Origin: Acidobacteriota bacterium
GTDB lineage: Bacteria > Acidobacteriota > Aminicenantia > Aminicenantales > Saccharicenantaceae
DNA: 59,643 bases
Assembly: GCA_028749205.1 (NCBI GenBank)
Contig: JAQULR010000002.1
Span: 1-59,643 of the forward strand
Reading direction: 5' to 3'
Within the stretch, counting starts at the first letter, position 1. The number at the start of each line of letters is the position of its first letter. The position numbers and the translations under genes were made by a program. This document shows, one piece after another, positions 28,651 to 50,248 of the stretch. The notes under the pieces are model-generated. The model made no database searches, was not told the origin of the DNA, and worked only from the letters and a program-made list of their open reading frames with translations.

Positions 28651-29406
28651 ATGGTTAGGATAGCTGAAATCCAAGCCAAGGGCATTCTGAACAAATCTAA
28701 GATATTTGAGTACTGTCTTAATCCATATACCGGTTGCCTCCATGGGTGCAAATACTGCTACGCCTCTCTTTTTATGAGAAAATATTCAGGTCATGCCGAG
28801 CCCTGGGGGCAATTTATTGACATCAAGGTCAATGCTCCTGAACTTCTGAGAAAACAACTGCCCCGAGCCAGAAAAGGGACCATCTGGATAGCTTCAGTCT
28901 GCGACCCTTATCAGCCCGTAGAAGCCAGCTACCAGCTGACTAGAAAATGTCTTCAAGAAATCAGCCGATACCAGTTTCCAGTTTTTGTTCAGACCAAATC
29001 AGACCTGGTAGTCAGAGATTTAGATATTCTTACCGGAATCCGGGATATAGAAATAGGCTTTTCTTTAGCCACAGATAGCGACAGAATAGCCCGTATTTTT
29101 GAACCAGGAGCACCATCTATCACCAGAAGACTAAAGGCCCTGGAAAAAATCAAAAGCCGCAACCTTAAGACTTTTGTTTTTGTTGGACCTATCCTTCCCC
29201 AGAAGCCAGGTAAATTAATATCTATGATCAAGGGTCTGGCCGACAAGGTCTTTATTGACCGTTTGAATTACTCAAACCAGTTTACTAATTTTTATCAGCA
29301 GCATAATTTAGAAGCCTTTGCCAGAGAAGAATTTTTTGAGCAGGTCAAACAAGTTCTGGTTGGAGAACTTGAAAAACAAAATATCAATTATGAACTAATT
29401 TTTTAG
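28651..29406 (+). CDS. Radical SAM protein of the SplB/Rv2578c-like group
   Basis: This 251-residue protein has the C-x3-C-x2-C cluster-binding motif at Cys29, Cys33 and Cys36 (GCLHGCKYCYASLF). It has the early NPYTGC and later VCDPYQPVE and QTKSDLVVRDLD segments typical of the spore photoproduct lyase-like group of radical SAM proteins. Most such proteins are uncharacterised, and a true DNA lyase role should not be assumed in a non-sporeformer. It is transcribed divergently from the barrel fusion gene. No strong ribosome-binding site is seen before ATG 28651. Confidence 0.85.
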   Translation: MVRIAEIQAKGILNKSKIFEYCLNPYTGCLHGCKYCYASLFMRKYSGHAEPWGQFIDIKVNAPELLRKQLPRARKGTIWIASVCDPYQPVEASYQLTRKCLQEISRYQFPVFVQTKSDLVVRDLDILTGIRDIEIGFSLATDSDRIARIFEPGAPSITRRLKALEKIKSRNLKTFVFVGPILPQKPGKLISMIKGLADKVFIDRLNYSNQFTNFYQQHNLEAFAREEFFEQVKQVLVGELEKQNINYELIF

Positions 29407-29534: not shown

Positions 29535-30839
29535 ATGCTCCTGCAAACTTTAATAATCTCAGCAGTAATCATATTAGGCTATGTTCTGGCCAAGTGGAAA
29601 AAGCTGTCAGTTGAGTTAAGCTTGCTGGTGGCTACTCTGGGTGGAGTTATAGCTGGCTCAGCTTTTAAAACTCCTCCCTTTTGGGAAATCCCCCGTCATT
29701 TAGTTGAGGGATCTTTCACCTACCTGGATGTAATTTTGGTTTTCTTTACCGCTACTCTCTTCATCACGATAATCCAAGAATCAGGCGGGGTTAACTTCGC
29801 AGTTCGATCGGCTGTAGTCCATTTCGCCAATTTCAGGTTCTTATCGTTATTCTTTTTAATGATAATAGTCCTGATTCCGGGAGCTTTAACTGGAGCTGGC
29901 AGCGTCTCTCTGCTTGTAGTTGGGGCCCCAGTAGCTTTGGCCTTAAAGGGATTGGGAGTTTCTGAAACAAAAATACCGGCCATTCTGTTTATCCTAGCCG
30001 GGTTGGCTGCGGCCGCTCCCCCAGTCAATATCTGGGCTATGATCTTATGCGCTGGAACCGCTATCCCCTACGTGGGTTTTGAGCTCCCCTTAGGTATCCC
30101 TGTTCTGATACTGGGAATGCTGACTGTCATCATTCTTGGGAGACGCCAGCCAGAGTCTGGCAACCTCCAAACCTTTCTGGAAACGATTGACTGCCACCCG
30201 AAAATGAACTGGATCCGGCTCCTTACCCCCTTTGTAGTTTTCTTTAGCCTGATTGTGGCTTATCGCTGGTTTCCTTTCAACTTTCCTATTCTTGGACTGC
30301 CTTTAGAATTCCTGATTGCTTCTTTGGTAGCCCTGGCTCTAAGTCCAGTCCGGATAAATCTAATCCGGGTGGCTTCTAACACAGTCAGCAAGCTCCTTCC
30401 ATTATTAGCCATCATGGTTATAGTGGGAATGCTGCAGCAAGTAATGGCCGCTACTGGAGTTAAAGGGCTTATATCTTATGGCACCCTGATAATTCCACTC
30501 TGGCTTTTATTCTTGCTTCTCCCAGCGATAATACCAATCTCAGAAGGAATATTAACCTATGGAGGAGCAGCCATAATCGGAATTCCTCTGGTCTGGTATC
30601 TAAATTCTCTCGGCTATCATGCAACAATAGTAATAGCCGGGCTCAGCTTGCTCTGGCCTTTAGGAGATGGTTTGCCACCAACCGCTTTAATTGGAAGGCT
30701 AAGTATTATGGTCTCAGGTTACCAGGACAGCTACTGGCGCTTCCTTAAACAAACCTGGATTCCCTGGCTGATAATCACCGTTACAGGAATGCTGATGATT
30801 ATTTTCAGCGCCAAACTCAGGTTTTTAGTAATCGGATGA
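29535..30839 (+). CDS. Ion-transporter-superfamily permease resembling TRAP large subunit (DctM-like)
   Basis: This 434-residue protein has about 12 membrane helices. It contains the paired glycine- and proline-rich re-entrant segments characteristic of the ion transporter superfamily: IPGALTGAGSVSLLVVGAP (about 118-136) and the later LLWPLGDGLPPTALIGR. It most resembles the large permease of TRAP C4-dicarboxylate carriers, but no DctP binding protein is adjacent, so it may work alone or with the 53-residue protein that follows. The start lacks a clear ribosome-binding site, and no earlier start codon exists before the upstream stop. It opens a run of six closely spaced genes. Confidence 0.72.
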   Translation: MLLQTLIISAVIILGYVLAKWKKLSVELSLLVATLGGVIAGSAFKTPPFWEIPRHLVEGSFTYLDVILVFFTATLFITIIQESGGVNFAVRSAVVHFANFRFLSLFFLMIIVLIPGALTGAGSVSLLVVGAPVALALKGLGVSETKIPAILFILAGLAAAAPPVNIWAMILCAGTAIPYVGFELPLGIPVLILGMLTVIILGRRQPESGNLQTFLETIDCHPKMNWIRLLTPFVVFFSLIVAYRWFPFNFPILGLPLEFLIASLVALALSPVRINLIRVASNTVSKLLPLLAIMVIVGMLQQVMAATGVKGLISYGTLIIPLWLLFLLLPAIIPISEGILTYGGAAIIGIPLVWYLNSLGYHATIVIAGLSLLWPLGDGLPPTALIGRLSIMVSGYQDSYWRFLKQTWIPWLIITVTGMLMIIFSAKLRFLVIG

Positions 30840-30867
30840 TTCAAATGGTTTGTAAGGATAGGTAAAA

Positions 30868-31029
30868 ATGATGCCTAAAATCATTATGATTTTATATTAT
30901 GGGATCTGTTTATTGTTCGTTTTTATCACTGTGAGAAATCTCATTCAAGAAAAGAACAGCCGGAATAATGTTATCCTTTATTTAGTCACTCTGATTCCAT
31001 TTATCTTAAGACTTCTCAGGATAAAGTGA
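30868..31029 (+). CDS. Small 53-residue membrane protein
   Basis: MMPKIIMILYYGICLLFVFI is followed by a charged loop (VRNLIQEKNSRNN) and a second hydrophobic helix ending in RLLRIK. It fits exactly between the permease (28 bp upstream) and the M14-like gene (10 bp downstream), with AGGT about 5 nt before the ATG. Two helices beside a DctM-like permease recall a minimal small subunit, but there is no sequence similarity I can claim to DctQ. I do not recognise the family. Confidence 0.6.
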   Translation: MMPKIIMILYYGICLLFVFITVRNLIQEKNSRNNVILYLVTLIPFILRLLRIK

Positions 31030-31039
31030 GAATAAAACC

Positions 31040-32206
31040 ATGAAAAAACCAACCGCCGGTTTCAAAATAATAGCTTCTCTGATCTTGGCCTTTATTTTAA
31101 TAGCTGGAGGCCAGCCTCTTTTGAACCACCGCAATTTTAAGGTGGAAATAGTCTGTGGCCCGGGAGTAACAGAAATCAAGAAATTGAGTGATTTCTGCCA
31201 ATCCTTAAAAGGAACAGAGGCTGATACCCCTGTCTTTATCCTGGAGGGCCAGCAGCCAGGAGGACAAGTCCTGATCATGGCCAACACCCACGCTAATGAA
31301 CCTGAAGGTATGATCTCTACTTTAATCATCATTGAGAATGCGGTGGTGGAAAAAGGGACTCTTTATATAATTCCTTTCTTCAACCGAAGTGCCAGATTAA
31401 ATACCAGGCCCGGAGAAGGTTACCCCCTATATTTTTCCATAACTACACCTTGGGGAATGAAAAAATTTCCGATGGGCAACAGGGATGCTTCTCCCCTTGA
31501 CCAGTGGCCTGACCCTGACGTTTATATCCATTACCCGGAAAAGCAGATGCTTTCCTATCTTGACATCAGGAACACTAACCGCACCTGGCCAGGGAGGAAA
31601 AATGGGCTGCCGATGGAGCAGGTCACCTGGGCAGCTATGGAACTCCTGAAACATAAAAAAGTAGACCTGGCTATCGACCTTCATGGGGCCGAAACCATGT
31701 ATCCTGTTACCAACTGTATTGTGGCTCCAGAAAAGGCCATGCGGATAGCCACCTTAGCCTCACTGACAGTAAAATCTATGGAAGGCTTTGAAAATCATGT
31801 TGAACCTTCTCCTTCTTCTTTCCGGGGGCTCTCTCACCGAGAAATCGGAGATTATTCCGATACTCTTCCCTTCCTATTGGAAGCACCTATTCCTTTTCTT
31901 GACCAGCCCACTGGACCGAAAACTGAAAAATTGCTTCTTGATGGACGCGATGACTTCCTTTTGAATCTGGCAAAAAAGAAAAAACTGTTTGTTCCCTATG
32001 ATGAATCAGGCTGGTCTTTTGACAGGAGAGTTGGGCAGCATCTTTCGGTCAGTCTTGAAATTCTCAGACAGTATTCTAAAAAAAACGCTGATAAAGAAAT
32101 AGTGGTTAAAAATGTTCCCCGTCATGCCGATCTCCTTAAAAATGGAGCTGGATATTTTTTTAAGGATCCATCAGAGGCTGAAGAAAACAAGGTAATAAAA
32201 TTATGA
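31040..32206 (+). CDS. Succinylglutamate desuccinylase/aspartoacylase-like (M14-type) zinc hydrolase, membrane-anchored
   Basis: This 388-residue protein has an N-terminal hydrophobic anchor or signal (about 10-25). Zinc ligands are His84 and Glu87 in NTHANEPEGM and His215 in IDLHGAE. Glu281 in FLLEAPIP is the probable general base. Relatives remove acyl groups from amino acids (aspartoacylase, AstE) or act as carboxypeptidases. The anchor suggests periplasmic action, unlike cytoplasmic AstE. It lies in a tight gene run with a permease and two C69 peptidases, which suggests deacylation or trimming of imported peptides or N-acyl amino acids (inference). Confidence 0.82.
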   Translation: MKKPTAGFKIIASLILAFILIAGGQPLLNHRNFKVEIVCGPGVTEIKKLSDFCQSLKGTEADTPVFILEGQQPGGQVLIMANTHANEPEGMISTLIIIENAVVEKGTLYIIPFFNRSARLNTRPGEGYPLYFSITTPWGMKKFPMGNRDASPLDQWPDPDVYIHYPEKQMLSYLDIRNTNRTWPGRKNGLPMEQVTWAAMELLKHKKVDLAIDLHGAETMYPVTNCIVAPEKAMRIATLASLTVKSMEGFENHVEPSPSSFRGLSHREIGDYSDTLPFLLEAPIPFLDQPTGPKTEKLLLDGRDDFLLNLAKKKKLFVPYDESGWSFDRRVGQHLSVSLEILRQYSKKNADKEIVVKNVPRHADLLKNGAGYFFKDPSEAEENKVIKL

Positions 32207-32287
32207 ACCGCCGAGGATAATTTGACTGGCTTAACAAAGTTTTGCCTCCAGAAAAGATCTCCAGATAACCTTGGGAGTGATCAATAA

Positions 32288-34000
32288 ATGAAAAGAATTA
32301 TTTACGCTGTTGGTACCCTGATTTTATTTGTCTTAGGCTTAGTCTTAATTCTAAACCAAAGAACTAAGCCAGTGGCAGAAGACCGGGTTTTAATCCATGA
32401 AAATTGCACTGTCATAATGGTCGGGAAAAAGGCCTCAGTTGATGGCTCAACTATGACCACCCATACGGCCGATTGCGGGATGTGTGACTGGACTTGGCGC
32501 TATGTTCCAGCAGCTGATCACCGACCCGGTGAGACCAGGAAGATCTATAGAATTTCTCAGGTCAGAACCTGGCCTCCGGAAGAAGGTCTTAAATGGGATT
32601 TAATAAAAAGGGATTTTACTGGACTGGAAATTCCTGAAGTGCCCCATACTTTTGGTTATTTGCATGGGGTTTTCGGTTATATAAATGATCAACAATTGGC
32701 TATCGGGGAATCAACCATCGGCAACAGATCTAAGATGTCCAACCACACTCAAACCCCAGCTTTTAACATAACTATGTTAAGCTTGCTGGCTATGGAGAGA
32801 TGCCGGACGGCTAGGGAAGCTATTACTCTAATGGGTTCCTTAGCTGAAAAATATGGGTATGGCGGAGAAGATGGTGGAGAGATGCTAGCCGTAGCTGATC
32901 CTGAGGAAGTCTGGGTCTTTGAGATAATGCCAGTTGGACCTCTATGGACCCCAGATAGCGGCCAGCCCGGAGCTGTCTGGTGTGCTCAGAGAGTTCCCGA
33001 TGACCAGGTCAGTGTCTGTCCCAACGAATCGAGGATAGGCCAGATTGACCTGGATAACCCTGATTATTTTATGGCTTCATCCAATGTGATCTCCTATGCA
33101 GTTGAAAACAAATTCTGGAACCCTCAGGGTGGCCAGCCTTTTAGCTGGAAAAAGGCCTACAGTCCGGTTGAAGGCAGTGCTGATAAACAGCCCCGGAGAA
33201 GCAGGATGTGGCGCTTTTTTGATCTGGTCTGTCCTTCTGCCGGCTTCCCAGCCTCTCTTCCCAATATGGATTTTCCCTTCTCAGTTAAGCCAGATAAACT
33301 TCTCTCGGTTAAAGATGTTATGAATCTTACCAGAGATAAAGGCTACGGAACTTTCTTTGACCCGGTTCGTGGCCTCAGAGGTGGTCCATTTAAGAATCCC
33401 AACTATGATGATTCAGCCCGTTTGATCAGTTCAAGAACGGTAGAATACACCACCGTTACTCAAGGCCGGAGCTGGCTACCCTCTGAAATCGGTGGTCTGG
33501 TCTGGTTAGCCTGGGGAACACAAGACACCTCTTGCTTTATGCCTTTCTACGCAGGGATTAAGGCTTTCCCCTCTTCTTTTAGCCAGGGAGACCATTGGGT
33601 TCTGAATCGTCAATCAGCACGCTGGGCCTTTGATTATGTCGACTTTCACACTCAGGTGGCTTACTCGGTTGCTATAGAAGATATCAGAAAAGCTCAAGAA
33701 ACCTGGGAGGACGGGGCCATCAAGCAGATCCCAGAAATAGATCGGCAGGCGACAGAGTTTTATAAAAGGAATAAGAAAAAAGCTTCAGATTTTTTAACCG
33801 CTTTCTGCCTTAACAATGCTGACCAGGTAGTTAAAGCTTGGTGGCAGCTTGGGGATGAATTGCTAGTTAAGTTTAATCATCTTAACTATTACAATGTTGA
33901 AAGGCGTGCTATCGAAAGAAAGAAGATGGATTTTCCTGAAAATTGGAAAAAAGCCGTTAAATTTATAGACATAATCTATGAAGACGCTAAAACTTTTTAA
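32288..34000 (+). CDS. C69-family (PepD/U34) dipeptidase, membrane-anchored, copy 1
   Basis: This 570-residue Ntn-hydrolase has an N-terminal hydrophobic helix (about 5-22). The conserved Cys40 starts the mature chain (NCTVIMVGKKASVDGSTM). Family marks follow: GESTIGNRSK, GEDGGEMLAVADPEEVWVFE, PNESRIGQIDLDNPDYF and SCFMPFYAG. C69 enzymes become active when N-terminal processing exposes the nucleophilic cysteine, and they cleave dipeptides. The anchor and upstream residues must therefore be removed. It is 26 bp upstream of a close paralogue, indicating tandem duplication. Confidence 0.92.
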   Translation: MKRIIYAVGTLILFVLGLVLILNQRTKPVAEDRVLIHENCTVIMVGKKASVDGSTMTTHTADCGMCDWTWRYVPAADHRPGETRKIYRISQVRTWPPEEGLKWDLIKRDFTGLEIPEVPHTFGYLHGVFGYINDQQLAIGESTIGNRSKMSNHTQTPAFNITMLSLLAMERCRTAREAITLMGSLAEKYGYGGEDGGEMLAVADPEEVWVFEIMPVGPLWTPDSGQPGAVWCAQRVPDDQVSVCPNESRIGQIDLDNPDYFMASSNVISYAVENKFWNPQGGQPFSWKKAYSPVEGSADKQPRRSRMWRFFDLVCPSAGFPASLPNMDFPFSVKPDKLLSVKDVMNLTRDKGYGTFFDPVRGLRGGPFKNPNYDDSARLISSRTVEYTTVTQGRSWLPSEIGGLVWLAWGTQDTSCFMPFYAGIKAFPSSFSQGDHWVLNRQSARWAFDYVDFHTQVAYSVAIEDIRKAQETWEDGAIKQIPEIDRQATEFYKRNKKKASDFLTAFCLNNADQVVKAWWQLGDELLVKFNHLNYYNVERRAIERKKMDFPENWKKAVKFIDIIYEDAKTF

Positions 34001-34026
34001 ATTACTGATTAATATAGGGAGGAAAA

Positions 34027-35769
34027 ATGACAAAAGACTTGAGAAGAACCAAATTTGTCAGGTTCTTTTTTCCAGCCTTGACTGCGGTCATAGCTATTCT
34101 GGCTGTATTTCTTATCACCGGCTCCCCGATTCCACCTGATCCCAACCTGGAGATTAGCCGACCTTCAGATAATTGTACTTCAATTTTGGTTGGAAAACTG
34201 GCTTCTACGGATGGTTCAACCATGACTACCCACACCTGTGACTGTGGACTGTGCGATTGGACCTGGCGCCATGTTCCAGGAGCTAAACACCAGCCCGGAG
34301 AAACGAGAAAAATCTATCATATTTCCCAATTTAAGACCTGGCCTCCGGAAGAAGGCCTTAAATGGGATTTAATAAAAAGAGATTTTACCGGTCTGGAGAT
34401 TCCTGAAGTCCCCTATACCTATGCTTATCACCACGGAATGTTCGGCTACCTGAATGAAAAGCAGGTGGCTATTGGGGAATCAACCATCGGCAATGTCCGC
34501 AAGCTGGACAATCCGACTCCGACTCCAGCTTTTGATATAACCATGTTAACAATTATCGCTATGGAAAGAGCTAGCACTGCTCGGGAAGCCATAAAAATCA
34601 TGGGCGAGCTGGCTGAAAAATATGGCTATGGTTTTCACGATAATGGGGAAATGCTAGCCGTGGCCGATCCTCAGGAAGTCTGGATTTTTGAGATTATCCC
34701 CGTTGGTCCTCTCTGGACTCCAGAGAGTGGAAAACCCGGAGCCGTCTGGTGTGCTCAGAGAGTGCCTGACGACCACGTCAGTGTCTGTCCCAATGAATCT
34801 AGAATTGGCGAAATAGACCTGAATAATCCAGATTATTTTATGGCTTCTTCTAATGTTATTTCTTGCGCTATTGACAACGGTCTTTACGACCAAAATAGCG
34901 GAAAACCATTCAACTGGAAGAAAGCTTATTCACCTATAAACGAAAGTGCTGTTAGCTCCAACGGACGATATCAGAGGCTTTGGAGATTCTTTGACCTGGT
35001 AGCCCCATCGCTCAAACTATCGCCCAGCACTCCGAACATGGATCTCCCCTTCTCAGTTAAACCCGACCGAAAAATCTCAGTTGAAGATGTGATCAATCTA
35101 ACTCGCGATAGAAGCTATGGAACCCAATTTGATCCTACCAGTGGTATCCGCGGCGGACCATTTAAGAATCCAAATTATTATCGTCAAACCAGAACCATAT
35201 CTGATAGCCGGGCTGAATACTCTACGGTCACCCAATGCCGAGATTGGTTGCCCGACCCGATTGGGGGAATTGTCTGGATTTCTTTTGGTGCTCAGGATAC
35301 CTCTTGCTATATGCCTTTTTACGCTGGGGTTACTGAACTACCGAAATCCTTTTCCATCGGTGACCACTGGGTTTTGAACCGGGAATCAGCTCGTTGGGCT
35401 TTTGACTACGTTGATTTTCATGTCCAGGTAATTTATTCTGAAGCTATCAAGGATGTCCAGCAGGCCTTGTTGAAATATGAAAAACCTATTATTGACCAAA
35501 TACCGGAGATTGACAAAAAAGCTGCTGAGTTATATGGCAAAAACCAGAAAGAAGCCATTAAATTCCTGACCGGTTTCTGTCTGAATAACGCCCAAAATGT
35601 GGTAAAAGCCTGGTGGAACCTTGGTGACCAGCTTCTGGTAAAATATAATCACCTTTACTATTATGACGTCGAAAAACGAACCTATCAGAGACGGTTTCCC
35701 ACTTATCCTGATACCTGGCAGAAAGCGGTTAAAGCTTTTGATATACTAATAGAGTCGGAAGGAAAATAA
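34027..35769 (+). CDS. C69-family (PepD/U34) dipeptidase, membrane-anchored, copy 2
   Basis: This 580-residue paralogue of the preceding gene shares long identical blocks such as TWPPEEGLKWDLIKRDFTGL and DYFMASSNVIS. The nucleophile is Cys50 (DNCTSILVGKLASTDGSTM), downstream of a hydrophobic anchor (about 12-32). GGGAGG lies just before the ATG. Both copies keep the nucleophile and the metal- and acid-rich DPEE/DPQE segments, so both are probably active, perhaps with different specificity. The next gene begins 17 bp downstream. Confidence 0.92.
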   Translation: MTKDLRRTKFVRFFFPALTAVIAILAVFLITGSPIPPDPNLEISRPSDNCTSILVGKLASTDGSTMTTHTCDCGLCDWTWRHVPGAKHQPGETRKIYHISQFKTWPPEEGLKWDLIKRDFTGLEIPEVPYTYAYHHGMFGYLNEKQVAIGESTIGNVRKLDNPTPTPAFDITMLTIIAMERASTAREAIKIMGELAEKYGYGFHDNGEMLAVADPQEVWIFEIIPVGPLWTPESGKPGAVWCAQRVPDDHVSVCPNESRIGEIDLNNPDYFMASSNVISCAIDNGLYDQNSGKPFNWKKAYSPINESAVSSNGRYQRLWRFFDLVAPSLKLSPSTPNMDLPFSVKPDRKISVEDVINLTRDRSYGTQFDPTSGIRGGPFKNPNYYRQTRTISDSRAEYSTVTQCRDWLPDPIGGIVWISFGAQDTSCYMPFYAGVTELPKSFSIGDHWVLNRESARWAFDYVDFHVQVIYSEAIKDVQQALLKYEKPIIDQIPEIDKKAAELYGKNQKEAIKFLTGFCLNNAQNVVKAWWNLGDQLLVKYNHLYYYDVEKRTYQRRFPTYPDTWQKAVKAFDILIESEGK

Positions 35770-35786
35770 TAAGGCGAGGGTTAAAC

Positions 35787-36449
35787 ATGAGCAAGAAGAC
35801 TTATTTGAGTTTATTAATCGGGCTGTTAGCTTTGGGTTCTGGGGTTTGGCTATTAAGTCAGACCATCCCCAAAGCCAGTTTGCCCGTTTTGACCACCTCA
35901 GCCGGTCAAAGCTCCGATGTGACCACGGTAAACATAATTCTGGAAGAAGCCGGAATTGGCTATGATTACTGCGATGTTCCCACCCCGGAAATCCTGGCCG
36001 AAGGAGTTGGTCTGGGAGGTAGAGAATCAGGAACTGGCTTCCACGTTGAAGTTCATACTGACCTCAATCAATTTAAGAAGGGAACTCCATACAAAACTGT
36101 GATTATGGCCATCGGCGCCAGCCTTAAAGGAATGGGGGCTTCTGGCCTGACTGTGGAAGCAGAAGAGGCTAGGTTGAGAAAAGTTATAGATTACTGCCGC
36201 TCTAATGATATTTTTATTATCGCAGTTCATCTTGGAGGTGAATCAAAACGCGGTGCTCCGGGAAGCGATAATGAAAGAATGATTGACACTGTTGCTCCTA
36301 TGGCTGATTATTTGATAGTCACCAAAGATGGTAATAAGGACGGCCGGTTTAGCAAAATTGCTAGGGAGAAGAACATTCCTATGTCTGAGGTTGATTACGC
36401 TCTGGATGTTGTCGATTTGATCAAACAGGTTTTCGGACAAGAGCCATAA
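35787..36449 (+). CDS. Exported DUF6305-like protein of unknown function
   Basis: This 220-residue protein starts with a signal or anchor (YLSLLIGLLALGSGVWLL, about 6-23). It continues as an alpha/beta fold with LTTSAGQSSDVTTVNIILEE near the N-terminus and VIMAIGASLKGMGASG, FIIAVHLGGESKRG and DYLIVTKDGNKDGRFS later. From memory it matches the DUF6305 family; the family number needs a profile check. The flavodoxin-like strand-loop pattern suggests ligand binding. As last gene of the permease-peptidase run, it may be its binding or regulatory component (inference). Confidence 0.62.
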   Translation: MSKKTYLSLLIGLLALGSGVWLLSQTIPKASLPVLTTSAGQSSDVTTVNIILEEAGIGYDYCDVPTPEILAEGVGLGGRESGTGFHVEVHTDLNQFKKGTPYKTVIMAIGASLKGMGASGLTVEAEEARLRKVIDYCRSNDIFIIAVHLGGESKRGAPGSDNERMIDTVAPMADYLIVTKDGNKDGRFSKIAREKNIPMSEVDYALDVVDLIKQVFGQEP

Positions 36450-36471: not shown

Positions 36472-36993
36472 TTATACCAGAGACTTCTGAAGCTTCTGTT
36501 GAGCTTCTTTTAAGAGTTTTTCTCCTTTCTGGATAAGGTCATCAAGCCGGGCAATAGCCACCCGGCACTTCAGATTTTCCATCTTTCGTTGGCCTTTTTT
36601 CTGGTCTTCAAAATATTTCTTCAGATAATCCTCCAACTCCTCAGTTGAAAAAAGCCGCGGCAGGTAGGAATCAGTCAGGAGAAGCTTTTTTACCTCTTCA
36701 TAATCCGCCTCATCACCCAGAGCCAGCTTTATATCGCGGGCAGCCTCATCCCTCCACTGCGCGTATTCCGGGGTAGAATAAGGAGGAACAGGCCCGAGAA
36801 GTTTCCTGGCCTCTGTCATGACCTCTTGAAAAAACAACTTCCCTTCTTTTAAAAGGCTTTTGGCTCGATAATATTCTGAGCTGGTAGCTGGGGTGTTTTC
36901 TTCAAGATATATCTTGAACAAATCAACTGCCTGGGAAAGAGCTTCATAAGCAGACTTAACTTTGACCTCAAAATTAAAATCCATCCTCATCAT
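36472..36993 (-). CDS. Helical protein of unknown function
   Basis: I do not recognise this 173-residue protein. It is strongly helical and charged, with possible coiled coil at the C-terminus (RLDDLIQKGEKLLKEAQQKL) and a short proline-rich break in the middle (GPVPPYSTPEYAQWRDE). It has no signal peptide or membrane helix and is probably cytoplasmic. GGAGGG precedes the start. It lies 67 bp downstream of the serine hydrolase start... reading direction places it last in the minus-strand run 39956-36472 only if the hydrolase at 37061 were upstream, which it is (67-bp gap between that gene's stop and this start). Confidence 0.7.
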   Translation of the reverse strand: MMRMDFNFEVKVKSAYEALSQAVDLFKIYLEENTPATSSEYYRAKSLLKEGKLFFQEVMTEARKLLGPVPPYSTPEYAQWRDEAARDIKLALGDEADYEEVKKLLLTDSYLPRLFSTEELEDYLKKYFEDQKKGQRKMENLKCRVAIARLDDLIQKGEKLLKEAQQKLQKSLV

Positions 36994-37060
36994 TTATCCC
37001 TCCATCCTGAGGTCAGATTGGCTTCAGCATAACAATATTTTAAGAAATATTCAAAAACTT

Positions 37061-38269
37061 CTATTTTTTGACGATAGACGCCGCTACCACGTTGGCCACC
37101 TTACTCCGTATGGAAACTATCTCACCCCTATCATTAGGATGAACCCGATTGGTCAAAAAGATAACGGTAGTTTCAGTTTCTGGGTCAATCCAGATAGAAG
37201 TTCCGGTATAGCCAGAATGCCCGTATGACCTATAGCCAAAAAAGTCACCTCTTACTGTAGCGTAATCAGATTCGAGATCCCAACCGAAACCTCGACCGGC
37301 AGATTTCAAACGGGGAAAGATTTCTGTCATCCTGTCTACAGCTAACGGGCTCAAAATTCTAATCCCGTCAAATTCACCCCGGTTTAGCATCATCTGGGCA
37401 AAGATAGCCAGGTCGTCAGCAGTTGAAAATAGACCGGCATTCCCTGATACTCCACCTTGAAGCCTGGCTAAGGGATCATGGACTACTCCTCTTAGAGGCT
37501 GGCCACCTATAACTTCAGTTGGGACACAGCGCGACCTTAAGGCTTCAGGCGGATTGAAGAAAGTGGAGTCTAAACCAAGCGGCTGAAAAATGTTCTTTTG
37601 AGAAAATTCTCCCAGATCTTCTCCAGAAACAATTTTTACTATTTGAGCCAGCACTATGTAATTAAGACAGCTATAAACAAATTTTTCTCCCGGCCTGGAG
37701 TCTTTAGTCATTTCGGCAATGTGCCTGACCAAAAGTTCAGTAGTACAAGGGGTTCCGTATTTTTTGACTACCTCTTCTGGCTCAACATAAGGAGGAAGTC
37801 CGGAGGTGTGTGTAAGTAGATGAAACAACCTGGCCTCTTCACCAGGGATTCCTTTTTCCTCAAGGTAAGGAACAAATTCTGGAATATAGGTCTTAACTTT
37901 ATCCCAGAGCCTGATTTGCCCCCGTTCAGCCAGAATTATTATAGAGGTGGCCGTAGCTATCGGTTTGGTTATTGAAGCCAAGTCAAAGATCATATCGGCT
38001 TTCATTAAAGACTTTTTAGGTACCACCTGGCTGTAACCATAGGCTTTTCGCCAGACGATCTTCCCGTGCCGGGACACCAAAAGAACAGCTCCAGGAAAAT
38101 CCTGGTCTTCAATAGCCTGGTTTATGACTTTATCTACCTCAGCCAACCTTTTAGAATCCATCCCGACCTCTTCTGGACGTCTTAAAGGTAGCTTTCCGCC
38201 AGCCAGGAGTGTCTGCCAGGACATCAAAAATAAAAGCAGCCCGACCAGTCTGAAAGTTTTCCTTGTCAT
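37061..38269 (-). CDS. Exported serine hydrolase of the class C beta-lactamase/PBP-like family
   Basis: This 402-residue protein has a signal peptide (about 1-24). The nucleophile motif is S-x-x-K at Ser99-Ile-Thr-Lys102 (LASITKPIAT). Tyr199 of the YxN-like motif lies in FVYSCLNY (cysteine where Asn is usual), and a third motif, HSG, lies in YGHSGYTGTS. The family includes esterases, D-aminopeptidases, DD-peptidases and true lactamases; nothing here singles out antibiotic resistance. It lies 11 bp after the CBM9-like gene and is probably co-transcribed with it. Confidence 0.9.
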   Translation of the reverse strand: MTRKTFRLVGLLLFLMSWQTLLAGGKLPLRRPEEVGMDSKRLAEVDKVINQAIEDQDFPGAVLLVSRHGKIVWRKAYGYSQVVPKKSLMKADMIFDLASITKPIATATSIIILAERGQIRLWDKVKTYIPEFVPYLEEKGIPGEEARLFHLLTHTSGLPPYVEPEEVVKKYGTPCTTELLVRHIAEMTKDSRPGEKFVYSCLNYIVLAQIVKIVSGEDLGEFSQKNIFQPLGLDSTFFNPPEALRSRCVPTEVIGGQPLRGVVHDPLARLQGGVSGNAGLFSTADDLAIFAQMMLNRGEFDGIRILSPLAVDRMTEIFPRLKSAGRGFGWDLESDYATVRGDFFGYRSYGHSGYTGTSIWIDPETETTVIFLTNRVHPNDRGEIVSIRSKVANVVAASIVKK

Positions 38270-43075: not shown

Positions 43076-44404
43076 ATGCTCAAGAAACATCCTCGAGCCC
43101 TCAGTTATATCTTTTTTACCGAAATGTGGGAAAGGGTTGGCTTCTATACCCTGATGGCGATTCTGGTACTCTATATGGACCAGATCCTCGGCTGGTCAGA
43201 TGCTCGAAAAGGTGACTGGTACGGACTCTTTCTTGCTTTATGTTATTTCTTCCCTCTGGTAGGAGGCTGGCTGGGCGATCGGGTATTTGGCCGTTTAAAA
43301 ACTGTTCGAGCCGGAGCGGCTATGATGGCTGTTGGTTATGTCGGTTTAGCTTTATCCTCAGCTTCTCAAATCACTACCTTTATTCTGGGCCTGGTGTTAA
43401 TTGCTATCGGAACAGGAATTTTTAAGGTCAATATGTCAGTTCTGGTTGGAAATATTTATAAAGAAAAGCCAGAATTAAAGGATGCTGGTTTTAACATTTA
43501 CTATATGGGTGTAAACCTGGGGGCTATGGTCGCTCCCCTTATCGCCACTTTTAACAGTGTCGTTTTTAATAGCTACCATCTGTCATTCTGGGTAGCAGCA
43601 GCGGGCCTGGTTGTGGCCTTAGTGATTTTTCAAGCAGGCCGCCTCCATTTGAATAAAGCCGACGATTTAGTAAACATCGATACAACCAATCCCGACGATA
43701 AAAATCGGCCTGAAAAACCAATTAAAGCTGAACCTGGACAGCCCTCTGATTTTGCTTCTGAGTCCTCCAATAGTGATTTCAAGGATAGAATCCTGGCTCT
43801 TATTATTCTTTTTGCCATAGTAATTCTATTCTGGGTAGCTTTTTACCAGAATGGCTTTGCCCTAACCCTGTTTGCAGCCCGCTCAACTATTTCCCTAAAC
43901 TGGTTGCGGCCTGAGACCTACCAATTTTTTGAACCCTTCTTTATCCTGGTTCTAACCCCCCTGCTTTTGCTCATCCTGGATAAACTTCGCCAGAAAGGAA
44001 AAGAGCCGAGTACCCCCAGAAAAATTTTTCTGGGGATGTTGTTTATGACTGCAGCCATGTTCATAATGATAATTGCCTGTTTGAGGGGTGGCAACCAGGA
44101 CCGGAACATCATGTCTCCATTCTGGCTTATTGGGACCTATTTTGTGGTCACAATTGCCGAAATTTTAATCTCCCCCATGGGTTTGTCCTATGTTTCTAAA
44201 GTGGCCCCGGCTAAAATTAGTGGTCTAATGATGGGTGGTTGGTATCTGGCTATAGCTTTTGGCAGCTATGGCAGTGGCTTGCTAGGAAAATTTTACAGTA
44301 AATTTCCCCACCATCAGTACTTTTTAATTCTGGCAGCTCTGCTTGGTCTGGCTACAGTTCTGGTCAGCCTTAGCATAAAAAAGCTGGAGCAGTATGCGGG
44401 TTGA
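43076..44404 (+). CDS. POT-family proton-dependent di/tripeptide transporter (DtpT-like)
   Basis: This 442-residue protein has about 12-14 membrane helices. It has the family's ExxER proton-coupling motif at Glu16, Glu19 and Arg20 (FFTEMWERVGFY), then GWLGDRVFGR, GTGIFKVNMSVLVG and FNIYYMGVNLGA. POT carriers import di- and tripeptides with protons. A charged loop (about residues 200-235) between helix bundles is longer than elsewhere in the protein. It is next to an M24 peptidase (43-bp gap), a natural uptake-and-cleave pair. Confidence 0.93.
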   Translation: MLKKHPRALSYIFFTEMWERVGFYTLMAILVLYMDQILGWSDARKGDWYGLFLALCYFFPLVGGWLGDRVFGRLKTVRAGAAMMAVGYVGLALSSASQITTFILGLVLIAIGTGIFKVNMSVLVGNIYKEKPELKDAGFNIYYMGVNLGAMVAPLIATFNSVVFNSYHLSFWVAAAGLVVALVIFQAGRLHLNKADDLVNIDTTNPDDKNRPEKPIKAEPGQPSDFASESSNSDFKDRILALIILFAIVILFWVAFYQNGFALTLFAARSTISLNWLRPETYQFFEPFFILVLTPLLLLILDKLRQKGKEPSTPRKIFLGMLFMTAAMFIMIIACLRGGNQDRNIMSPFWLIGTYFVVTIAEILISPMGLSYVSKVAPAKISGLMMGGWYLAIAFGSYGSGLLGKFYSKFPHHQYFLILAALLGLATVLVSLSIKKLEQYAG

Positions 44405-48516: not shown

Positions 48517-50145
48517 TTAAAAACCTCTGGAGTATTTGGTCCAGAAATACTGATAAAGCTCTCGGTATTTCTGGAGAGCTGCTCTGGCGAAATCACCGGT
48601 ATAATTATTAAGATATTCGGTGACAGTAAATGGTTCGTTAGCCAGGTCTTTACTTTTCATTATTTCCAGCACTTTCTTTTCCACCAGGGGTAACTCCGTC
48701 AAGGCTTTCTCTTCAAAAACTCTTATGGTCTCTTCCATTATTTCACGATTATCACCCCAGCGAAGGATGGCCAACCGGTTGGCTCTTCTGAAGATCCAGG
48801 CAGCAGAATCTTCTCGGTAGCCGTGCTGACCACAGATTTCAAAACCTGGTGGCAGCTCAGTAACCCCGGCAAAAATTGGGATGCGAGCACTTAAAGCCGG
48901 GTTGTCTAAAGAAAACCAGCAGACGGCTCCAACCGCTGGTGGCAGCCAGCTCTTGAGCTGAATTACAGTAGCATAGGCACAGGCATTGATGGCAATGGTC
49001 CTCTGTGAGCTGACGGTACCAGGCTTAAGGGTATTAATCATATTCATCCAGTCTCTGGACATCCAGTTACTGACCACCGGGCTTTTAACGAGTTCCTCGG
49101 AATTTCTTTTTTTGACCAGCAAATCTTTACTCATATCAAACTCAGTTCCTTCATAGGTTTCCCGATAGAGCCTAAGAACATCCTGGACTGAAACTTTTTT
49201 ATCCGGTTTTATCGAGAATGGTAGTTCTTCCGCATTTATATCTAATTTCAGAGAAGGAGCCAGCTGACTAAAAACAAAATATTCTCTTATCGAGAATGGT
49301 TTCCGGCCGCTGTAAGCTTTCCAGAATTTGAATGGTTCTCCTTTTTCAGGATCCCACCAGCCCATCTCTTCAGCTAACTCATAGACGTTTTCTGAAGCCA
49401 GATAGTGATCTGGATCTTTTAGGTTGATTTCAGAAATCCTGGGAATATTGGCAGAGATGCCAACCTGATCGTCCGGTATTCTGACAGCTGCCCAGACGGC
49501 TCCTTTTTCTAAGGGTCCGGCCCCAAAGATTTCAAAGTGCCAAACCTCTTGGCTGTCAGCTATGGTTAAACATTCGCCATAATCGCCGTAGCCATATTCC
49601 TTAACCAGCTGTCCGGCCAGCTTGATGGCTTCTCGGGCAGTTTTACATCTTTCAAGCATCAATCTTTCCAACTCTTCTATCATGAAGATGCCTTCTGGAT
49701 TGTAAAGTTCTTGCCTGCCACCTATGGTAGTCTCGCCGATAGCCAACCCCTGTTCATTTAGGGCAGGGTAAGCCGTGTTTAAAAAAGCAAAGGTCTCTGG
49801 AACTTCAGGAATTTCTCCTTTTAGGATGAGCCCTCTTATGTCAGCCGGGGTGGCCGTATGCATTTTCCTCTCATATATTTTATTGGTACTTCCAGGGCTA
49901 TTTTTACGGTGGGGAACTATGTTCACCCACTGTCGGTAATTTCCATCACAGGTGTGAGAAGTTATAACCGAACCATCAGTTGAAGCCAAGCGGCCCACCA
50001 TAATACTGGTACAACCAGAAAACTCCTCCAGGTCCAGCTTAGCCGAAGTCCTGGTTTGGGATTGGCTGGCAGGTAGCCAGAACAGCATTACTGCCAAAAA
50101 AACAAAGCCATAAAACGATTTTTTCCTCCAGAGGTTGAAGAACAT
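48517..50145 (-). CDS. Exported C69-family (PepD/U34) dipeptidase, copy 3
   Basis: The start is ATG at 50145, seven bases after AAGGAG; a TTG two codons earlier overlaps it. The 542-residue protein has a signal peptide (about 6-28). The nucleophile is Cys45 (SGCTSIMVGRLASTDGSVI), with GETTIGGRQE, YGDYGECLTIADSQEVWHFE and the C-terminal RIPIFAGV. It is clearly related to the tandem pair at 32288-35769 but more divergent and about 30-40 residues shorter. Removal of the leader and upstream residues would expose Cys45 as the N-terminal nucleophile. Confidence 0.92.
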   Translation of the reverse strand: MFFNLWRKKSFYGFVFLAVMLFWLPASQSQTRTSAKLDLEEFSGCTSIMVGRLASTDGSVITSHTCDGNYRQWVNIVPHRKNSPGSTNKIYERKMHTATPADIRGLILKGEIPEVPETFAFLNTAYPALNEQGLAIGETTIGGRQELYNPEGIFMIEELERLMLERCKTAREAIKLAGQLVKEYGYGDYGECLTIADSQEVWHFEIFGAGPLEKGAVWAAVRIPDDQVGISANIPRISEINLKDPDHYLASENVYELAEEMGWWDPEKGEPFKFWKAYSGRKPFSIREYFVFSQLAPSLKLDINAEELPFSIKPDKKVSVQDVLRLYRETYEGTEFDMSKDLLVKKRNSEELVKSPVVSNWMSRDWMNMINTLKPGTVSSQRTIAINACAYATVIQLKSWLPPAVGAVCWFSLDNPALSARIPIFAGVTELPPGFEICGQHGYREDSAAWIFRRANRLAILRWGDNREIMEETIRVFEEKALTELPLVEKKVLEIMKSKDLANEPFTVTEYLNNYTGDFARAALQKYRELYQYFWTKYSRGF

Positions 50146-50248
50146 GCTCAAGCTCCTTGGTTTTAAAATAATAAAATAACGATTTCCATTATCAGTAAGC
50201 CCAATGAGGCTGTCAATCTTTTTTTCTTTTCTCCCTTTTACTAATCGA

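Follow-up and report, generated by a model that had tools for sequence, protein, structure and literature searches.

A four-gene module of Aminicenantes associated with poly-gamma-glutamate synthase genes

The DNA analysed here, called the window, is a stretch of 59,643 nucleotides (contig JAQULR010000002.1) from a Candidatus Saccharicenans (Aminicenantes) assembly of 2.1 Mb that is 92% complete. At positions 29535-36449 it contains a cluster of six genes, for which an earlier note had suggested uptake of peptides or acyl-amino acids. All six were verified as plus-strand open reading frames (Table 1), and the gaps between them, in order 28, 10, 81, 26, and 17 bp, agreed with the range of 10 to 81 bp reported before. 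Close relatives are found in Candidatus Saccharicenans and other Aminicenantes, and since dozens of genomes repeat the gene order, the arrangement is far beyond chance. The conserved unit consists of four genes, not six, specifying a DUF6305 protein, a permease, a mini membrane protein, and an M14-like zinc hydrolase. Partnership of this module with the poly-gamma-glutamate (gamma-PGA) synthase genes pgsB, pgsC, and pgsW (pgsBCW) is well supported.

Table 1. Genes of the cluster in the window
Product	Position	Strand	Status and basis
DctM-like/IT-superfamily permease, 434 aa	29535..30839	+	core; DctM matches in relatives, AlphaFold model
53-aa two-helix mini membrane protein	30868..31029	+	core; C-terminal motif LRLLRxK-stop
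Anchored AstE/AspA-type (M14-like) zinc hydrolase, 388 aa	31040..32206	+	core; PF24827
Exported/anchored C69 Ntn (N-terminal nucleophile) hydrolase, 570 aa	32288..34000	+	optional partner; PF03577
Second exported/anchored C69 Ntn hydrolase, 580 aa	34027..35769	+	optional partner; PF03577
DUF6305 exported/anchored single alpha/beta-domain protein, 220 aa	35787..36449	+	core; PF19823

The permease of the window did not match any Pfam or NCBIfam family. Among its relatives, 10 of 19 scanned matched DctM (PF06808; best 2.8e-12), and the permease of Cetobacterium was above the DctM cut-off while the window protein lacked a match. The AlphaFold model (predicted local distance difference test, pLDDT, 73) was most similar by template modeling (TM) score to SiaM of a tripartite ATP-independent periplasmic (TRAP) transporter (7qha_B, TM 0.66/0.67), and VcINDY and other carriers of the ion transporter (IT) superfamily were also matched. 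Sequence and profile searches against solved transporter structures yielded no match. A TRAP/IT-superfamily fold is predicted and the cluster contains no binding-protein gene, in line with the earlier description as a TRAP-large-subunit-like permease without a binding protein. IT-superfamily permeases of known function mostly import small anions or exchange them. The proposal that the permease imports the product agrees with a fold that normally imports carboxylates, and inward transport is presumed here.

The mini-protein had no match in Pfam or NCBIfam. It contains two hydrophobic segments, in line with the two helices described earlier, and comparison of the window with congeners gave pN/pS (the ratio of nonsynonymous to synonymous polymorphism) of 0.20-0.33, indicating purifying selection. 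It is typically 47-53 residues long, with a conserved tyrosine near the start and the ending 'LRL...K/Q-stop'. Its absence from some loci was considered and ruled out: once intergenic gaps were read directly, none of the 40 module copies checked lacked it.

The M14-like hydrolase matched AstE_AspA_cat (PF24827; 2.6e-6, above the Pfam cut-off), as did all of the 18 M14 proteins scanned. The catalytic set is H84xxE87, R177-N178-N180-R181, H215, and E281 (window numbering), of which H84, E87, R177, N178, R181, H215, and E281 are invariant across the module clades described below. Profile searches hit DoeB (1.7e-9) and PDB chain 4wcm (2e-4), which we take to be Csd4 of H. pylori, a gamma-D-Glu-mDAP (meso-diaminopimelate) carboxypeptidase. 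Enzymes of the M99/Csd4 type cleave the gamma-Glu-mDAP bond. One in-frame stop each was seen in the M14 copies at G111:C15 and G162:C16, which could be sequencing errors or decaying copies.

Both C69 hydrolases matched PF03577 (1.1e-56 and 4.1e-66, in gene order). In the first, Cys 40 is located where the family nucleophile sits, and in the second 'nCTSILVGK' aligns with 'sCTSILVGK' of the PDB dipeptidase 5iau. Both are classified from their sequences as C69 enzymes, with predicted N-terminal processing. The catalytic motifs of the M14-like and C69 proteins are intact. Two further C69 genes were noted outside the cluster, one in the window (48517-50151, minus strand), about 36% identical to the second enzyme (C69b), and a fourth of the host genome at G000:C22.

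The last gene specifies DUF6305 itself (PF19823; 1.3e-42, 145.5 bits with a cut-off of 25). Its AlphaFold model (pLDDT 88) consists of one small alpha/beta domain behind an N-terminal helix, and no solute-binding protein was among the 50 best matches of a fold search, which gave no close or specific relative. The earlier idea of DUF6305 as a possible binding component was abandoned, because neither fold nor profile searches support it as a TRAP binding protein. A single N-terminal hydrophobic segment in each of the M14, C69, and DUF6305 proteins supports export or anchoring, as proposed before. In the literature searched, no description of DUF6305 or of the four-gene module was found.

Module loci were collected via the permease, and togetherness was judged where the contig was long enough. 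In 40 out of 40 copies examined, from Aminicenantes to Fusobacteriota, the four core genes occur together, with DUF6305 before or after the other three; beyond Acidobacteriota the sampling consists of one Cetobacterium plasmid record. The co-occurrence across genera that the earlier note had asked for is thus present for four of its six genes. The C69 genes were rejected as a core component, being optional, with 0 (L067, L117, L122) to 3 (L054) copies per module in the clade of the window, and widespread, occurring in 64 of 199 Acidobacteriota genomes. Trees of permease, M14, and DUF6305 revealed an identical split into three clades: A, the type of the window, with C69; B, adjacent to pgs genes; and a third containing clade C, linked to gamma-glutamyltransferase (GGT), and Cetobacterium. 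Pairwise distances correlate at 0.92-0.97. The module has thus undergone duplication and moved as a whole, with exchange of its Ntn-hydrolase partner, which is GGT in one clade and C69 in that of the window.

The link to gamma-PGA synthesis, absent from the earlier note, came from a tblastn search of plasmids with DUF6305 of the window, which detected one record, from Cetobacterium somerae (Fusobacteriota). Here, ggt, DUF6305, a 'TRAP transporter large permease', a 47-aa protein, M14 (named 'succinylglutamate desuccinylase' in the database), pgsB, pgsC, and pgsW follow each other on one strand. Located 5' of this operon (L097, 1381-6062) are a second ggt, a chromate-transporter gene pair, and a two-component system, which are possibly co-regulated. 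In the host genome of the window, a second module copy (G000:C9, L098) converges on pgsW-pgsC-pgsB and contains DUF6305, an M28 peptidase, a 203-aa protein, permease, a 51-aa mini-protein, and M14. The PgsB (263.6 bits, cut-off 222.7) and PgsC (122.1, cut-off 96.45) encoded there, as well as PgsW (TIGR04332), exceed the NCBIfam cut-offs, so that the host carries both synthase genes. This layout is repeated in L099-L102, and in L171 the order is M14-pgsB-pgsC-pgsW; M14 is thus directly joined to pgsB in two phyla. The genes for the M28 peptidase and the 203-aa membrane-type protein, between DUF6305 and permease in L098 (9639-12747), were also observed beside pgsBCW in L101, L102, L167, and L169.

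Genome counts gave the same picture. Among the 199 Acidobacteriota genomes, the permease was detected in 14; these 14 also have DUF6305 above its cut-off, and 13 of them, but no other genome, have PgsW; PgsC was found in 14, 13 of them shared and the other a congener of the fourteenth (Fisher p about 2e-19 for co-occurrence, without correction for ancestry). The class was represented by 142 genomes, of which 84 contain DUF6305 and PgsW, ten DUF6305 only, three PgsW only, and 45 neither; the 13 genomes with just one of them are 67-92% complete. DUF6305 was located within 10 kb of PgsW in 30 genomes, about 1.2 being expected (pairs compiled by hand from two listings). The pair also recurs in a distant family (G062) and in family f6, where both genes were found in the only carriers among the matches listed, G292 and G293, which belong to one genus. 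A single in-frame stop was reported in PgsW of G062 (C161, 9909-10751), which may be a sequencing error or a decaying copy.

Other genes surround the cluster of the window. A radical-SAM gene upstream (28651-29406) and, downstream (36472-38269), a 173-aa gene and a beta-lactamase-like gene are conserved in the genus; in more distant relatives these neighbours are mostly missing. An open reading frame at 43076-44404 specifies an N-terminal sequence resembling POT-family peptide transporters.

Since the module tracks gamma-PGA synthase genes, a gamma-glutamyl polymer or its fragments are suggested as substrate, and the previous proposal of peptides or acyl-amino acids appears too broad. Probably, the module serves surface turnover and uptake of gamma-PGA or a related gamma-glutamyl polymer in partnership with PgsB-PgsC-PgsW. 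At the cell surface, gamma-glutamyl chains would be cut by the anchored zinc hydrolase and by an Ntn hydrolase that is exchangeable (GGT or C69), an ion-coupled permease with the mini-protein as small subunit would import freed glutamate or short gamma-glutamyl products, and DUF6305 would be an anchored accessory. The C69-type copy of the window may share its polymer with the pgs-linked copies. Conservation of a zinc hydrolase, an Ntn hydrolase, and an anion-type carrier beside pgsBC points to such cutting and uptake. PgsB belongs to the Mur/FolC kind of gamma-glutamyl ligases, and gamma-PGA is known to be cut by GGT/CapD and by the zinc enzyme PghP (PMC4497714, PMC3815933), so that the hydrolase types of the module fit this function.

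PgsA/CapA (PF09587) had no match in the host genome (92% complete), and of 13 genomes with pgsBC it was present in three and undetected in ten, in which the module is nevertheless kept. The main competing explanation places the module in export or assembly, as a replacement of the PgsA/CapA-PgsE/CapE part of the synthase. In that case, the mini-protein would be a CapE analogue, the permease would contribute to export or to ion balance, and the hydrolases, like CapD, would determine chain length or anchoring. The direct joining of M14 to pgsB would fit, and the Bacillus synthase also includes a tiny membrane protein (PMC3815933). However, the module frequently lies apart from pgsBCW and occurs in additional copies, PgsW itself could replace PgsA, and the mini-protein offers for comparison two hydrophobic segments without a family match. 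Given also that small anions are mostly imported or exchanged by known permeases of this kind, a role in assembly or release is considered unlikely. On PgsW with gamma-PGA nothing was found in the literature searched; one paper uses 'poly-gamma-glutamate system protein' for capA of Francisella, and TIGR04332-type proteins may therefore be filed as CapA.

Several observations weigh against turnover and uptake of a gamma-glutamyl polymer. The permease was assigned from Pfam matches of its relatives and a model of medium confidence, and no profile homology to a solved transporter was found. The genome counts carry no correction for shared ancestry, though the pair is also found in G062, G292, and G293. 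C69 genes are common in genomes without the module, and C69 enzymes are not known to cleave gamma-glutamyl bonds. No report of gamma-PGA from Aminicenantes was found in the literature searched. Finally, the module copy of the window does not adjoin pgs genes, which leaves room for general scavenging of peptides and N-acyl amino acids by the C69-type clade; it would have drifted to protein-derived substrates, while related clades serve the gamma-glutamyl polymer. This would suit the C69 dipeptidases of this clade, the M14 profile near the N-acetyl-diaminobutyrate deacetylase DoeB, and the peptidase-rich genomes of Aminicenantes, which are thought to be amino-acid fermenters (PMC4897734). Yet G060 and G093 harbor only the clade of the window and still have pgsBCW elsewhere in the genome, C69 is optional in the clade, and C69 genes also adjoin pgsBCW in L165, L168, and L169, making such a drift improbable. 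If turnover and uptake of a gamma-glutamyl polymer is correct, four uncharacterised or mis-named families (DUF6305, the DctM-like permease, the mini-protein, and the 'succinylglutamate desuccinylase') would take part in one testable process. Aminicenantes, an uncultured lineage according to the cited literature, might then make or recycle such a polymer. Gram-negative gamma-PGA systems are little known.

Comparison with known systems revealed partial similarities. As in PgsBCAE/CapBCADE of Bacillus, Staphylococcus, and F. nucleatum, PgsB and PgsC families are present in module genomes, often nearby, and a gamma-glutamyl hydrolase of the GGT/CapD type and a tiny membrane protein occur in the neighbourhood. 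Module genomes differ in mostly having PgsW (TIGR04332) instead of a detected PgsA/CapA, and the papers found report no such permease, DUF6305, or AstE/AspA-type hydrolase as part of PGA systems. The M14-like protein shares the HxxE...R/NR...H...E set and PF24827 with AstE/AspA/DoeB deacylases, and weakly matches Csd4-type M99, but is predicted to be exported and membrane-anchored, with about 390 residues; to PghP no sequence match was seen. The C69 proteins have PF03577 and the nucleophile cysteine within CTSILVGK in common with PepD-type dipeptidases, but carry an N-terminal signal or anchor and score below the NCBIfam C69_fam_dipept equivalog cut-off. It is conceivable, and we propose it tentatively, that permease and mini-protein form a new kind of TRAP-like carrier, which lacks a binding protein and has a subunit of 50 residues, and, with DUF6305 and M14, an undescribed PgsA-less gamma-PGA system of at least two phyla that transports gamma-glutamyl oligomers through the inner membrane. 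The permease resembles TRAP transporters (DctM/SiaM large subunit) in its predicted fold, and half of its relatives scanned match DctM. In contrast to them, the cluster of the window has no gene for a periplasmic solute-binding protein, and in place of the usual four-helix DctQ small subunit the module has a two-helix protein of 47-53 residues.

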